From a virus: a stretch of 47,457 nucleotides of DNA. The translations under genes and the position numbers were made by a program. The stretch spans positions 1-47,457 of the IMG/VR virus record IMGVR_UViG_3300022539_000153; one strand, written 5' to 3'. Below, in pieces: positions 11,190-42,875 of this stretch. Under the pieces are notes generated by a model that saw nothing but the letters and a program-made list of their open reading frames with translations, made no database searches and had not been told where the DNA came from. Numbering within the stretch: the stretch's first letter is position 1; each line of letters begins with the position of its first letter.

Positions 11190-11546
11190 ATGAAAAATTG
11201 GAAAAGCCAGTTCAAGGAATGGCTTAAAGAAATTTGTCCTTGGGGAAAGGTGTATGATTATGTGGATTTTCACACGGAGGCATTAATTAAAAAATATTGC
11301 TCCGACATCAAAGAAAAAGAATCAAGTTTAGGAGTGAGGATTTACACCAAGCAATATTGCTATAGAATTAAAGCTAGTGAACGGCATTTTGGGTGTGTTA
11401 TGAGCGTCAGGAAACCCAGGGCTGGTGAGGACTGGACTCGTTATCTTGATTTATTAGATGGAAAATTTGACAGGAGGACTTGGGATGCGATTAAAAACGC
11501 AATAATTGCTAGTGAGTTGGTAAAGATTGTGAATTTTAAAGCATAG
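11190..11546 (+). CDS. First rightward gene, hypothetical (118 aa)
   Basis: A 118-residue basic protein (MKNWKSQFKEWLKEICPW) with GGAGGTAAA directly upstream. No family is recognised. It is flanked by a 15-base inverted repeat and driven by the strong promoter at 11106. Its position opposite the early operon and its basic charge would fit an early regulatory or accessory protein, but that is only inferred from place. Confidence 0.75.
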   Translation: MKNWKSQFKEWLKEICPWGKVYDYVDFHTEALIKKYCSDIKEKESSLGVRIYTKQYCYRIKASERHFGCVMSVRKPRAGEDWTRYLDLLDGKFDRRTWDAIKNAIIASELVKIVNFKA

Positions 11547-11567
11547 GAACCTAGAGTAAAATAACAA

Positions 11568-11582
11568 ATACCGCCCGTCTTA
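11568..11582 (-). repeat. Inverted repeat flanking the 11190 gene, right arm
   Basis: ATACCGCCCGTCTTA is the partner of the 11160-11174 arm (one mismatch). It lies between the 11190 gene and the methyltransferase gene. Confidence 0.6.
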
Positions 11583-11606
11583 TTTGCTTTAGAAACAGGA
11601 GGAAGA

Positions 11607-12170
11607 ATGATCCCGTTTCCAGATAAAGAATACCAAATTATCTATGCAGACCCGCCATGGGATTATGGTAATACAAAAAATCTTACTGGGCATTTTTGGG
11701 GGATGGCGGATAAACATTATCCAGTTATGAAGTTAGAAGACATAAAAGCATTACCAATACATGATTTAGCAAATAGGGATTGTTATTTATTTTTATGGAC
11801 TACTGCTCCTTTTATGGAAAAGGTGTTTGAAGTTATTAGGGCATGGGGGTTCAAATATGCCACAATCGGTTTTGTGTGGATTAAAATGAAAAATGATATG
11901 AGTGGAGTGCGGAGAGATGGATTGGGTAGATACACAATATCTAATGCAGAGTATTGTTTAATAGCAAGAAAAGGTAAATATTGGAGAAGGACAAAAAACG
12001 TTAAACAAATAATCATGACCCCAAAATATAAACACTCAAAGAAACCAGATGAAATAAGAAACAGAATTATTGAACTTGTAGGAGACCTATCAAGAATAGA
12101 ATTATTTGCGAGAGAGGAAATCGATGGGTGGGATGTTTGGGGAAACGAAATAAAGAAAGAAAAAGCTTGA
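11607..12170 (+). CDS. MT-A70 family DNA adenine-N6 methyltransferase
   Basis: A 187-residue methyltransferase with the catalytic DPPW (residues 15-18, IIYADPPWDY), CYLFLWTTAPF, and the family C-terminal block HSKKPDEIRNRI...IELFARE...GWDVWGNE. It transfers a methyl group from S-adenosylmethionine to adenine N6; in phages such enzymes usually protect DNA from restriction or mark it. AGGAGGAAG lies before the ATG. No partner endonuclease is seen next to it, so it is probably an orphan methylase. Confidence 0.9.
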   Translation: MIPFPDKEYQIIYADPPWDYGNTKNLTGHFWGMADKHYPVMKLEDIKALPIHDLANRDCYLFLWTTAPFMEKVFEVIRAWGFKYATIGFVWIKMKNDMSGVRRDGLGRYTISNAEYCLIARKGKYWRRTKNVKQIIMTPKYKHSKKPDEIRNRIIELVGDLSRIELFAREEIDGWDVWGNEIKKEKA

Positions 12171-13556: not shown

Positions 13557-13817
13557 ATGAGCGATCTTTCTGAATTTAAACGGGGAATGGTGGGATTATT
13601 AAAGGTATTAGCACAGGAGAGTTTAGAGGGACAAAGATTAGATCACTATCAGTTGTATCAAACCATGCAAGAAATTGTAGAAAAATATGAGGTGCCTGTG
13701 GAAACATTCCATAGTCGGGCATCGTTCAACAATATAGATTTCAAGGAATTAGACGAAGAGACTACAGCTCGGATGATTTTAAGTTTTCTGAGGAAGGAAA
13801 ATAAAAATGATAGATAA
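13557..13817 (+). CDS. Hypothetical protein, tandem paralogue 1 (86 aa)
   Basis: An 86-residue protein with FKRGMVGLLKVLAQESLEG and RLDHYQLYQTMQEIVEKY, clearly related to the protein at 13927 (FKRGILGILKVLSFESL, RLDHYSLYKNMQDIVEKH). The ribosome site is weak (AGTAGGG). It is predicted all-helical; the function is unknown. Confidence 0.75.
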   Translation: MSDLSEFKRGMVGLLKVLAQESLEGQRLDHYQLYQTMQEIVEKYEVPVETFHSRASFNNIDFKELDEETTARMILSFLRKENKNDR

Positions 13818-13926: not shown

Positions 13927-14184
13927 ATGGAAAATAATAAAGTCGGGGCAATAAACTTCCAGGAATTTAAAAGGGGAATATTGGGAATATTGAAGGTATT
14001 GAGTTTTGAAAGTTTGAAAGCCCAACGACTAGACCATTATAGCTTGTATAAAAATATGCAAGATATCGTAGAAAAACATATAATTCCAAAGGATATTGAT
14101 TTGAAGGTATTTGAGGATGAGGAAGCATGGGCACGGATGATATTAAATTTTCCGAATAGTGAACAAGAAGTTTCTGAATTATAA
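13927..14184 (+). CDS. Hypothetical protein, tandem paralogue 2 (85 aa)
   Basis: An 85-residue paralogue of the 13557 protein with the same FKRG.LG.LKVL and RLDHY.LY..MQ.IVEK blocks and a shared ARMIL.F near the end. The pair looks like an old tandem duplication. The function is unknown. Confidence 0.75.
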   Translation: MENNKVGAINFQEFKRGILGILKVLSFESLKAQRLDHYSLYKNMQDIVEKHIIPKDIDLKVFEDEEAWARMILNFPNSEQEVSEL

Positions 14185-15461: not shown

Positions 15462-15613
15462 AAGAAGAAATGCGTTATATTACTTATGAAGAACAGAAAT
15501 TATATGAAAAACTTGCAGTAAAATATGGTATAAACGGTTATTCACCCATTACATTCATGATTCGTCAAAAAAACGATAATGCCAAAAAAAAAGAAAATAA
15601 CGACCAAAGCTAA
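15458..15613 (+). CDS. Hypothetical protein (51 aa)
   Basis: A 51-residue protein (MKEEMRYITYEEQKLYEK), coupled to the previous gene by ATGA and overlapping the portal start by 35 bases. The second half (YGINGYSPITFMIRQK) is mixed. No family is recognised. Confidence 0.6.
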   Translation: MKEEMRYITYEEQKLYEKLAVKYGINGYSPITFMIRQKNDNAKKKENNDQS

Positions 15614-18545
15614 AGTAGAGGTGGTAACCAAGAGTAGTGTGGAAGGATTCAGAGGTGGAATGCGGTTGGATTTAGACCGCAAAATGAAAGACCACAGCGG
15701 ACAGACTCTAAGGGAAGTTCTTGTCAACCATTTTGTTGATGTATTAGAGCAGGAAATAGAAAATCAGGCTCCAAGATTAAAGAAGATTCGCAAATGGAAC
15801 AAGATGTATCGTGGAGAAAGAGACCCGAAGTCTTCGCCTTGGGTAAATTGTTTCTCTAAAGATACTGAGGTTTTGTCTGATGGTGGGTGGACATTGGTAT
15901 CAGATGTTCGTGTTGGTGAAAGATTATTGTCTATGAATCCGATTGGTGGGGAAAGTGGGTATCGTGCGGTAACTGAAAAATCTTGTACTTATCATGGTGT
16001 TTTAAAACATATATATAACGAAACGGTAGATTTTATGGTAACTCCAGACCACAAAATGGCAGTGTATAAGGGTGAATCGAAATCGGAGTTTAAATTTGTA
16101 TTGGCGAGTGATTTAAATGCTGGGCATAAAATTCCCCTTGTTTCTCAGTGGAAAGGCAAGAATGCCGACTTAATTTTTGGGTTATCTCCGTTGGATGCGG
16201 TTAGTTTTTTAGGTTGGTATATAGCAGAGGGGTGGACATTTAAGAGTGGTACTATTGGTATTGCACAGAAAGATAAGGCACATAGATATACCATCCATAA
16301 ATTATTGAATCGGCTTGGCTTTAAATATTCTAGTAGCTCGAAGGGATTTTTGGTTTCTGCAAAGAGTGTGCCGTTACAATTTAGACGGCTTTTGAAGCGA
16401 CTTGGTAAGAGTGAAGATAAATATATTCCTCGTTTCTTTTTGGATTTAGAGTCAGAATATTTGATTGAATTATTAGATGCGTTATTAGCTGGCGATGGGC
16501 ATATACGGTTTAGGTATGATAGAAATTTTCCTAAGGCGGCGTATTTTACCACATCTAAACAGTTGGCAGACGACGTACAAGAATTGGCACAAAAAATAGG
16601 ATTGCGAGCATCTATTAAAATTGAAGATAAGCGAGGGCAAATTTGTGTTAGCGACCGATTTCGCTTAGGAGTTATAAGAAAAAAACTCTATCGGATTTAT
16701 ATTCTATTTAAAAAACAAGCGAAAATTTCAAGAACGCAAGTTGATGATATTGGTTACAATGATTTTGCGTATAACTTTACAGTGCCTCCATATCATTCTG
16801 TTTATGTGCGAAGAAATGGTAAGGCAGCATGGTGTGGGCAATGTGCTAACGTGGCGATTCCAGTATCTCGGTCTAATGCAGATGCAATTTCTGTCCGTGT
16901 TATTGAAGCAATCTGGGGCAAGACTAAGATGGCACTATTTAAGGCTATGGACGGAAGGCTTGTTGGGCTTGATAAAGAGATGGAGGATTGGTTTAACTGG
17001 TATCAGAAAAGCATTCTGGACTTTCAGGGTAAGTTACTTTCTCCAGTCTTACAATGCGTTAATACTGGTACAGGGCTTGTAAAGTTAGACTGGTTGATTA
17101 AACGCAGGACAGTTTACAGATATGCGAATGCAGATGAAGTTGATAATAAAAATATCCCGAAATATCCGATATATAAAAGTGAAACACCTGGTATAAAAGA
17201 GGTTATAACAGAAAATAATGGTCCACAGATTTATCCATTAGACAGAGAAGATTTTATAATTTCCTCGGATGCTCGAAGTATACAGGATGCGTATATTGTT
17301 GGGTTTCAGAACAGGATGCGGAAACCCCAGATTAGATTGAAAGAAACACAGGGTTTGTATTTTAAAGGTACTACTAATAATATTTTTCCACAGTCAGAAG
17401 AAGATGAGACGATTAAAGCTAAGGTTAAGTCTGAAAGTAAAGAGTTGGAATATGTTGTAGACGAGAGTAAACCTATACGAATTTGGGAACTTTGGGTTAG
17501 GTTTGACGTGGATGAGGACGGTGAGGAGGACGACATCGTTCTTACGATACACAAAGAAAGCAACACTATTTGTGATGCAATTTACAATCCGATTTTTAAG
17601 GGCTTTAGACCGTTTATTGATTATGTATTTTATCCAAGCGAGTATCATTTTGATGGTGAAGGGGCTATGGAGATACTTGAGAAGCCTCAAATTGAGTTGG
17701 ATGGTCTACATAATCGAAGATTAGATAGATTAACAATGCTTAATTGCCCAGAAACATTTATAAAACAAGGGTCTGGGATAGACGATTATAAAAGGTCGCC
17801 TGGAAAGGTTACGGTAGTACGGGGAGAACTTGAGACTTCAATTAAGGAACTTGAGGCACATGATATTTATCCATCAACATTTAGAGAAGAAGATATGCTG
17901 GCCAGTTATATGGATAGAGCAGTGGGTATAACGCCTGCTGTTATGGGTATTTCTACAGCAGAACGACCAGTAGCCAGGGAAACATTCGCTTTACAGCAAG
18001 AAGCAAATAAGAAGTTTGCGTTTGGAATAAACAATATAGTCCGCAGGATTTCAGATACAATATATATGTTACTTGAGATGATGGCTCAGTATCAGCCTGA
18101 GTACAGATATAAAGTTCGGCAAGGTGAGGAGTTCCAAGAAAAGACCGTTAATTTTCCTGGTTGGATGGTTAGAGACTCTTTACAGATTGAGTGTATTGCA
18201 GCGAGTGCAATGCTTAATCAGGAGGTACGGCGAGAAAAAGAACTTACTTTATATCAGTTATTGTCTGACTATTACACAAAAACAGCGGGGATGGTACAAG
18301 CTGTGTGCGATCCGTCTTTACCACCAGATTTTAAGAAATTTCTTATCAGTGTAGTGGAGAAAGGGGACAGACGAATTGAAAAAATTCTTGATGACTTTGA
18401 CGAAAGGGATTCCGAACAATATCTGGTAAATATTAATGAGGTTATAGACGTGGATGCGAACCTAAATCCTCCTCCGCCACCTCAGATGCCACCTGGACAG
18501 CCTCCAACAATGCCAGGGGGACAGCAAGGTGGGGGGCGTATGTAA
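15579..18545 (+). CDS. Portal protein containing an in-frame intein
   Basis: A 988-residue precursor. Residues 1-90 and 422-988 form a P22-type portal of 657 residues after splicing; the portal forms the dodecameric DNA gate at one head vertex. Support includes KWNKMYRGERDPKSSPWVN joined to CANVAIPVSRSNADA, EGAMEILEKPQIELDGLHNRR, and a Pro/Gly-rich tail (PPPPPQMPPGQPP). Residues 91-421 are an intein (separate entry) that must be removed for function. The ribosome site is poor and the start overlaps the preceding gene by 35 bases. The scaffold and capsid genes follow within 6 kb. Confidence 0.9.
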   Translation: MPKKKKITTKAKVEVVTKSSVEGFRGGMRLDLDRKMKDHSGQTLREVLVNHFVDVLEQEIENQAPRLKKIRKWNKMYRGERDPKSSPWVNCFSKDTEVLSDGGWTLVSDVRVGERLLSMNPIGGESGYRAVTEKSCTYHGVLKHIYNETVDFMVTPDHKMAVYKGESKSEFKFVLASDLNAGHKIPLVSQWKGKNADLIFGLSPLDAVSFLGWYIAEGWTFKSGTIGIAQKDKAHRYTIHKLLNRLGFKYSSSSKGFLVSAKSVPLQFRRLLKRLGKSEDKYIPRFFLDLESEYLIELLDALLAGDGHIRFRYDRNFPKAAYFTTSKQLADDVQELAQKIGLRASIKIEDKRGQICVSDRFRLGVIRKKLYRIYILFKKQAKISRTQVDDIGYNDFAYNFTVPPYHSVYVRRNGKAAWCGQCANVAIPVSRSNADAISVRVIEAIWGKTKMALFKAMDGRLVGLDKEMEDWFNWYQKSILDFQGKLLSPVLQCVNTGTGLVKLDWLIKRRTVYRYANADEVDNKNIPKYPIYKSETPGIKEVITENNGPQIYPLDREDFIISSDARSIQDAYIVGFQNRMRKPQIRLKETQGLYFKGTTNNIFPQSEEDETIKAKVKSESKELEYVVDESKPIRIWELWVRFDVDEDGEEDDIVLTIHKESNTICDAIYNPIFKGFRPFIDYVFYPSEYHFDGEGAMEILEKPQIELDGLHNRRLDRLTMLNCPETFIKQGSGIDDYKRSPGKVTVVRGELETSIKELEAHDIYPSTFREEDMLASYMDRAVGITPAVMGISTAERPVARETFALQQEANKKFAFGINNIVRRISDTIYMLLEMMAQYQPEYRYKVRQGEEFQEKTVNFPGWMVRDSLQIECIAASAMLNQEVRREKELTLYQLLSDYYTKTAGMVQAVCDPSLPPDFKKFLISVVEKGDRRIEKILDDFDERDSEQYLVNINEVIDVDANLNPPPPPQMPPGQPPTMPGGQQGGGRM
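15849..16841 (+). mobile_element. LAGLIDADG intein in the portal protein (331 aa)
   Basis: Precursor residues 91-421. Block A starts at C91 (CFSKDTEVLSDGGW). Block B carries T155 and H158 (VTPDHKM). The LAGLIDADG endonuclease motifs are FLGWYIAEG (210-218, acidic E217) and LLAGDGHI (302-309, D306). Block F is FTVPPYHSVYV, and the end is WCGQ followed by C422. The C-terminal residue is Gln421 instead of the usual Asn, and the penultimate residue is Gly420 instead of His, an unusual variant. The endonuclease would cut intein-free portal genes and spread the element. Confidence 0.9.
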
Positions 18546-18779: not shown

Positions 18780-19238
18780 ATGCCAAAGAAAGGATATAAA
18801 CAAACGAAAGAACATAGGAGAAAGCTAGGGATAGCATACAAGGGCCGAAAAAATGCTATGCTTGGCAAATATCACACTGAGGAGACTAAGCGAAAAATCG
18901 GTGAGGCAAGTAAGGGCAGGGTGCATTCAGAGGAAACAAGGGCAAAAATGAGTAAGGCTCATAGAAAACGACCCTCTGGAATGTTGGGGAACCACCATTC
19001 GAATGTAACGAAGATAAAATTACGGGAAATAAGCAATGGGAAAAATAGTTCGAATTGGCAAGGTGGAAAAGAGACATATTGGCGTAACCAGTCTCGCAGA
19101 GTTTGGGAGAAATATTGGCATGAGTATATACCAACTGGATACCTGATTCATCATGTAGATGAAACTATTGAGAACTATGATATTTGCAATTTAGCATTAT
19201 TAACTCATAGTGGGCATCAGGGAATTCATAGGAAATAA
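18780..19238 (+). CDS. HNH homing endonuclease with NUMOD3 repeats (HNH-2)
   Basis: A 152-residue free-standing endonuclease. Residues 1-80 contain NUMOD3-like DNA-binding repeats (TKEHRRKLGIAYKGR, TEETKRKIGEASKGR, SEETRAKMSKAHRKR). The C-terminus is an HNH nuclease with LIHHVD, ICNLALLT and GHQGIH. Its nuclease half (NWQGGKETYW through NLALLT) closely matches HNH-1 at 5950, while the N-termini are unrelated. It sits between two intact head genes, so it appears to be a mobile insertion that left the reading frames whole. Confidence 0.85.
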   Translation: MPKKGYKQTKEHRRKLGIAYKGRKNAMLGKYHTEETKRKIGEASKGRVHSEETRAKMSKAHRKRPSGMLGNHHSNVTKIKLREISNGKNSSNWQGGKETYWRNQSRRVWEKYWHEYIPTGYLIHHVDETIENYDICNLALLTHSGHQGIHRK

Positions 19239-41249: not shown

Positions 41250-42875
41250 ATGTTATCTACAAGATTTGTCCGTGAACTTTGTGATAAAAGTTTCTATCAT
41301 TTTGTCCGTCTTATAGGTGGGTCTGTCGGACAGGGGGGTTGCATCACAGAGGAGATTCACAAGCCTCTTTGCGACTTCTGGCAAGATGATTCCATAAAAC
41401 GTAAAGCCATCTGTATGCCACGCAACTGGCTAAAGTCCACAGTCTTCACACAATGGGGTTCTATCTGGAGATATCTCAGAGACCCTAATGCCCGCATATT
41501 AATCGTATCTCAAAACCAAGACCTTGCATCAAGGTTTCTCCATTTTATTAAAAAACAACTCCTGGTTAATCCTGTATTGCGTAAAGTCTACGGAGATTTC
41601 CTTGAGGATATTAACAAGACCTGGACTGGTAATAAAGAAAATAGATGGACATCAAAATACGTGGACTTACCCCGCCCTGGGTTCTTTAAAGAACCGTCCA
41701 TTACATCTATAGGTGTGGTTGGCGCAGCACAGTCAGGGCATTATCCGTTTGTCTTTATGGATGATCCTGTTGGACAGAAACATATAGACAGTGGAGTAGA
41801 GCTTGAGAAGGTACTTCGATACCATGACAACCTTGATGAACTCCTGGAGAACCCAAATTATATGGAACCTGGTGGTAGCCTTATCACTTTAGTCTTCACT
41901 TTCTGGGGGCCAGGAGACTACGGCACCTATGTCATGAAGAACTATCCTGAATACCATTGGAGAATAGTTCCTGGATTAAAAGACGTTGATTTAGTGTCCG
42001 ATAAGAAAAGCGTTGTCTATGTTCAGAATAAAGAAGCCGACCACTTTACAAGTAACTGGGAAGATGCACCAAAAGGAAAGGGAAAGACCAAGTATTATCA
42101 GACGATGTTAGCCAACCCAGAAAAAGAGAATATCTTCTGGTCGCAGATTATGAACAATCCCAAGCGTGGAACTGGGTTGAATAAGTTTGAGTATGATTGG
42201 ATTAGGTTTTACAGGTGGGATGAGAGAGATGAGGATAGGTTTCTTATTTGTCAGAATGACCAAGATAAGGACACTGATATAGAATATTCGCTGACCGACT
42301 TACCGCTATTCGGTATGATTGACCCAGGCGGGTTTGCTGAAGAGAAGCTAATGAAAAAAGGCAGTCGCAATGCAATCCTAATAGGGGGTCAACCAGATAA
42401 TAGTGTGAAGAAGTTTGTTGTTTATACATGGTCAGGTCGCCTTAAAGCACCAGAGACTTTCTTGGATGAGGTATTTAAAGCACATGAAATGTTTCATCCT
42501 TTGACGTGGAGAATAGAAACGATAGGTGCACAACAATATATCTATCAGGACATACTTGAAGCATGCGAGAAGCGAGGCATCCCCTTAAGTATTTCCCCGA
42601 TGCCAATCGTTCCAATGAAAGGGAATAAAGGTGATGATATTCAAGCATTAATGAATCCTTTTTTTAATGGTGAAGTATATATCCATCGGTCAATGGTTGA
42701 ACTCATAGGAGAAATTACCGAGTATCCTCATGGGTTTACCAATGACCTTATAGATATGCTAGGCAAGCTAAATAAGCTATACTTTGCCAGAACTCCTGTG
42801 GAAGATTTGCTAAAAACCAATCGGGAGATGACTCAGATGCTTGAGCAAGATAGGTCACCCGTTGATGGATATTAG
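41250..42875 (+). CDS. Large terminase subunit (ATPase and nuclease)
   Basis: A 541-residue packaging motor. The ATPase domain has a deviant Walker A MPRNWLKST (56-64) and Walker B FVFMDD (167-172); the coupling motif region is LVFTFWGPGD. The C-terminal RNase-H-fold nuclease starts with FGMIDPGG (D358). It cuts and pumps DNA into the head through the portal. The ribosome site is weak. Unusually it is the last gene of the arm, about 26 kb from the portal. Its stop overlaps the opposite gene. Confidence 0.9.
   Translation: MLSTRFVRELCDKSFYHFVRLIGGSVGQGGCITEEIHKPLCDFWQDDSIKRKAICMPRNWLKSTVFTQWGSIWRYLRDPNARILIVSQNQDLASRFLHFIKKQLLVNPVLRKVYGDFLEDINKTWTGNKENRWTSKYVDLPRPGFFKEPSITSIGVVGAAQSGHYPFVFMDDPVGQKHIDSGVELEKVLRYHDNLDELLENPNYMEPGGSLITLVFTFWGPGDYGTYVMKNYPEYHWRIVPGLKDVDLVSDKKSVVYVQNKEADHFTSNWEDAPKGKGKTKYYQTMLANPEKENIFWSQIMNNPKRGTGLNKFEYDWIRFYRWDERDEDRFLICQNDQDKDTDIEYSLTDLPLFGMIDPGGFAEEKLMKKGSRNAILIGGQPDNSVKKFVVYTWSGRLKAPETFLDEVFKAHEMFHPLTWRIETIGAQQYIYQDILEACEKRGIPLSISPMPIVPMKGNKGDDIQALMNPFFNGEVYIHRSMVELIGEITEYPHGFTNDLIDMLGKLNKLYFARTPVEDLLKTNREMTQMLEQDRSPVDGY

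Follow-up and report, generated by a model that had tools for sequence, protein, structure and literature searches.

The window, a virus record analysed over its entire 47,457 bases, contains a portal gene whose reading frame appears to be interrupted by an intein ending in Gly-Gln. The locus raises the questions of whether this interruption is a complete intein with exactly defined ends, and of how far its C-terminus departs from those of its relatives and from a known splicing route. The portal gene encodes an unspliced precursor of 988 aa (15579..18545 including the stop codon, +), and its frame is open along the whole length. The extein matched Pfam SU10_portal (E=2.2e-21; 76.4 bits, with the profile cut-off at 30) and the portal family phrog_1216 (8.5e-23), and the host gene of the intein is an SU10-type phage portal gene. 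No close portal relative was found among named phages, the best match being 24% over one third of the query.

The initial annotation had described a full LAGLIDADG intein of 331 residues at 15849..16841 (+), and this was borne out by a LAGLIDADG_3 match, by the predicted fold and by homologues with an empty site. The intein extends from Cys1 to Gln331 (portal residues 91-421), starts with CFSKDTEVL and ends with AAWCGQ, followed by Cys+1. It separates an N-extein (portal residues 1-90; 15579..15848, +), the last residues of which are SSPWVN, from a C-extein beginning at the Cys of CANVAIP and running through the stop codon (16842..18545, +). When the spliced portal of the window (residues 1-90 plus 422-988; 657 aa) was aligned with 33 intein-free portals, there was no gap at the join, and the proposed junction was upheld. 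The aligned joins were SSPWVN/CANVAIP in the window, SFPWEN/CANVAIP in L029 and SFPFEN/CANVAVP in L118. Alternative junctions were unnecessary, since the spliced alignment was already gapless. The site had also been called conserved, and this holds only in part: P87, N93 and P97 hardly vary. Positions -1 and +1 do vary, and the 12-residue stretch across the junction is about as conserved as the portal average, 42% of the 12-column windows being at least as conserved.

The same boundaries were seen at the DNA level in a pair of related loci. L018, which carries a 330-aa intein, differs from the intein-free L019 by an exact 990-bp insertion between AAC and TGT, with flanking DNA 91-95% identical on either side, and the insertion point is the same codon boundary as that of the window intein. 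The site was visible in 46 related loci, of which only L018 and L020 had an intein or an intein end there. An in-frame intein is thus confirmed at exactly the claimed position of the portal ORF, and the compared sequences demonstrate its anatomy, its boundaries and an insertion/empty polymorphism.

The LAGLIDADG_3 domain was detected in the intein with E=1e-12. The AlphaFold model of the intein, for which 34 aligned sequences were used as input, had a mean pLDDT of 94.8 and showed a Hint plus LAGLIDADG fold. In a Foldseek search with this model, the closest structures were VMA inteins, with TliVMA as the best match (E 1.7e-16) and PI-SceI also among them, and the endonuclease fold matched PI-SceI, PI-PfuI and I-DmoI. 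A phmmer search against PDB gave no significant relative; the fold search alone found any. PI-SceI and TliVMA (PDB 1vde, 7qss and 7qsu) share the Hint plus LAGLIDADG architecture of the window intein. Their full-length matches to it were 11-16% identical. Their host is a cellular ATPase, unlike the portal of the window.

The residues expected of a class 1 intein are present, namely Cys1, a TxxH motif in block B, a cyclising residue (in the variant form of Gln331) and Cys+1. The block B motif is TPDH (intein residues 65-68; 16041..16052, +), in which the His is invariant and the first residue is Thr or Ser in all 109 aligned relatives. The penultimate His that is usual, though not obligatory, in class 1 is replaced by Gly330; the class 1 scheme reviewed in PMC4031507 includes Gln-ending inteins, and functional inteins with G:6 residues other than His are known (PMC4031507, PMC5050341). 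The departures of the window intein from the textbook pattern are Asn309 at F:4 (16773..16775, +), Gly330 at G:6 and Gln331 at G:7, the last two forming its C-terminus (16836..16841, +). Class 3 chemistry was considered and rejected, as the WCT positions B:12, F:4 and G:5 are Met, Asn and Cys and Cys1 is present. Both LAGLIDADG motifs, GWYIAEG and LAGDG, retain their acidic residues; among the relatives, the first motif has Glu or Asp in 109/109 and the second has Asp in 105/109.

The comparison covered 109 non-identical relatives, the window included, gathered mainly from two scans. At G:6, Gly was found in 107 of them and Ser in 2 (Gly in 63/63 of an earlier set). At G:7, 98 relatives had Asn and 11 had Gln, the latter count describing the relatives nearest to the queries and not a population frequency. 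The Gly-Gln end had been presented as a deviation as a whole; the sequence does end in Gly-Gln, but a penultimate Gly is the norm in this phage intein clade and only the terminal Gln, a minority state, deviates. Gly-Gln as a unique oddity was therefore ruled out, with Gly being normal and Gln recurrent in the clade. The position that does set the window apart is F:4, which is Cys in 93 relatives, Asp in 9, and Ser and Gly in 3 each. Asn occurred there only in the window, making it the sole private active-site change of the window intein among the 109.

The larger tree was built quickly and many of its forks are weak; in the tree used for the Asn/Gln state, built without the last two intein residues, parsimony required six changes, at least four of which fell on well-supported branches. 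The Gln-ending members lie in portal genes (the window and L030), in terminase genes (L060, L065 and L085, together with L181-L183, which were placed there by similar C-extein starts) and elsewhere (L063, L217 and L239), and the partial intein of L020 also reads CGQ/S. Two correlates of Gln were rejected. A requirement for His at F:13 fitted the first set (6/6) and was then refuted by L181-L183, which have Tyr/Phe there, and by L217, which has Lys, and a link to Cys+1 was ruled out by Ser+1 in most Gln-ending members. L181 (754-1806), L182 (1104-2156) and L183 (1501-2553) carry terminase-type inteins that end in Gly-Gln, with F:4 occupied by Gly and F:13 by Tyr or Phe. Judged from these residues, their active sites appear odder than that of the window, having neither the usual F:4 residue nor the block F His.

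In a carefully built tree, the window intein and L030 were sisters (98/83) within a clade of 15 rows (100/100), most of which lie in portal-like ORFs. SU10_portal scored above the cut-off in the ORFs of L031 and L033 and more weakly in those of L035, L040 and L041, the remaining portal members being assigned by the PWxx...NV motif alone; the exceptions were L034, which looks like a terminase, and L049 and L051, which lie in other ORFs. The insertion point was PWxN followed by (C/S)AN in some members and, one codon downstream, PWxxA followed by SNV in others. A scan of genomes with a single protein gave five relatives, among them L175, inserted at a portal-type motif. These observations suggest that the lineage has moved across divergent portal families and for the most part remained in portal genes. 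The initial annotation had regarded portal as a less common intein host, which does not apply to this lineage in view of the mostly-portal clade and of the portal inteins published from mycobacteriophages (PMC5050341). Three inteins of the portal clade, L035 (2992-4014), L049 (2992-3981) and L051 (2992-3996), have Pro instead of Cys as the first residue. Of the WCT triplet they have the Cys (F:4) and the Thr (G:5), whereas B:12 is Met instead of Trp; by these residues they resemble class 3 with an incomplete triplet, and L035 is the one in a portal.

The initial annotation had stated that a few inteins, some of them viral, are known to have Gln termini, and a published phage case agrees with this: the intein in the ribonucleotide reductase alpha gene of phiCbK (gp112), which is shared with invertebrate iridescent virus 6, ends in Gly-Gln (PMC3556154). 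Like the window intein, these inteins are viral, start with Cys1 and have the uncommon C-terminal Gly-Gln (PMC3556154); they differ in host gene and insertion site, and the likeness is one of description. The mycobacteriophage inteins include a portal group (PORT, cluster C1) and an RDF group (PMC5050341). They are phage-borne as well, and the PORT inteins resemble that of the window in host gene; the main text of PMC5050341 makes no mention of Gln. The RDF intein has a working natural penultimate Gly, the replacement of which by His slows splicing (PMC5050341). Two further loci share the window's portal family, insertion site and Gly-Gln end. The intein of L002/L018/L030 (IMGVR 3300032053_000218) is 45% identical to that of the window and has Cys at F:4 in L030, and that of L020 (IMGVR 3300038458_000003) is a fragment only and is followed by Ser+1. 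Phage Gly-Gln inteins and phage portal inteins are both already published, and the window intein is a further example.

Based on these results, the intein of this SU10-type portal gene is very probably a mobile one of class 1, equipped with a LAGLIDADG homing endonuclease, splicing by the class 1 route and spreading by homing. We infer its catalysis, its splicing in vivo, its cyclisation product and its DNA cleavage and homing as follows. Cys1, aided by the block B TPDH, would form the first thioester, and the chain would then be transferred to Cys+1. Gln-ending inteins splice by Gln cyclisation (PMC4031507), and Gln331 would accordingly yield an aminoglutarimide instead of a succinimide. In mycobacteriophage inteins the part of the penultimate His can be played by a His of block F (PMC5050341; see also PMC8175363), and by analogy His316 at F:13 (16794..16796, +) is the likely helper of this cyclisation in the window intein, which has no penultimate His. 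Some Gln-ending relatives (L181-L183 and L217) have no block F His, so this helper role would not be universal. An S-N shift would finally ligate PWVN to CANVAIP, giving the 657-residue portal with the predicted junction SSPWVNCANVAIP, and the endonuclease would carry the intein into intein-free portal alleles.

The gapless junction, the empty/filled pair L019/L018 and the occupation of this site by a homologous intein in L018 and by an intein end in L020 all favour a mobile, splicing intein, as do Cys1, TPDH, the F:13 His, Cys+1, both LAGLIDADG acidic residues and the confident fold. The observation against it is the F:4 Asn, which no other of the 109 relatives has. This private residue, taken together with the slowing effect of Gln on two archaeal Pol II inteins, from Pyrococcus abyssi and Methanoculleus marisnigri (PMC4031507), means that activity could be reduced. 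Carried further, the intein could be decaying or impaired, with Asn at F:4, Gly at G:6 and Gln at G:7 jointly making splicing slow, conditional or incomplete and leaving much of the portal unspliced or cleaved at one end. However, the whole 988-codon frame is open and all the other key residues are kept, including both LAGLIDADG acidic residues. A functional portal is, moreover, expected to be essential in tailed phages. The RNR intein of Chilo iridescent virus even splices better with its native Gln than with Asn (PMC4031507), and we regard impairment as improbable. An assembly artefact or chance, with an intein-coding stretch misjoined to the portal gene in one metagenomic contig, is hardly credible: this exact phage is represented by one contig only, but the insertion is in frame and gapless, and the independent contigs L018 and L020, with homologous inteins at the same site, refute such an artefact in practice.

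This intein has implications beyond the window. The terminal residue of related inteins inserted at one portal motif is either Asn or Gln, providing a natural panel for replacement of the cyclising residue, and this state has changed in several lineages of one phage intein clade. It is conceivable, though improbable, that a portal-specialised lineage has repeatedly re-tuned its cyclising residue from Asn to Gln and that F:4 Asn, G:6 Gly and G:7 Gln form an active noncanonical centre whose last step times the availability of portal for head assembly. In uncultured phages, homing appears to target the portal gene recurrently, and intein-bearing portal genes may be misannotated.

Several other features of the window were observed. 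Just downstream of the portal gene lies a NUMOD3/HNH endonuclease gene (18780-19238, +; NUMOD3 4.2e-17, HNH_3 4.2e-06), possibly a free-standing homing endonuclease. The terminase large subunit gene (41250-42875, +; phrog_38 4.5e-46) is ca. 23 kb from the portal gene, which is unusually far for a tailed phage. An MT-A70-type DNA methyltransferase gene was found at 11607-12170 (+; PF05063 7e-27); the region 11190-12170 was considered as one gene split by stops, and this was rejected as the methyltransferase has its own ATG start and no Pfam family matched the ORF upstream of it. Two adjacent small ORFs of 86 and 85 aa (13557-13817 and 13927-14184, +) have repeats in common, spaced 391 bp apart and 74-87% identical, which looks like a tandem gene duplication.
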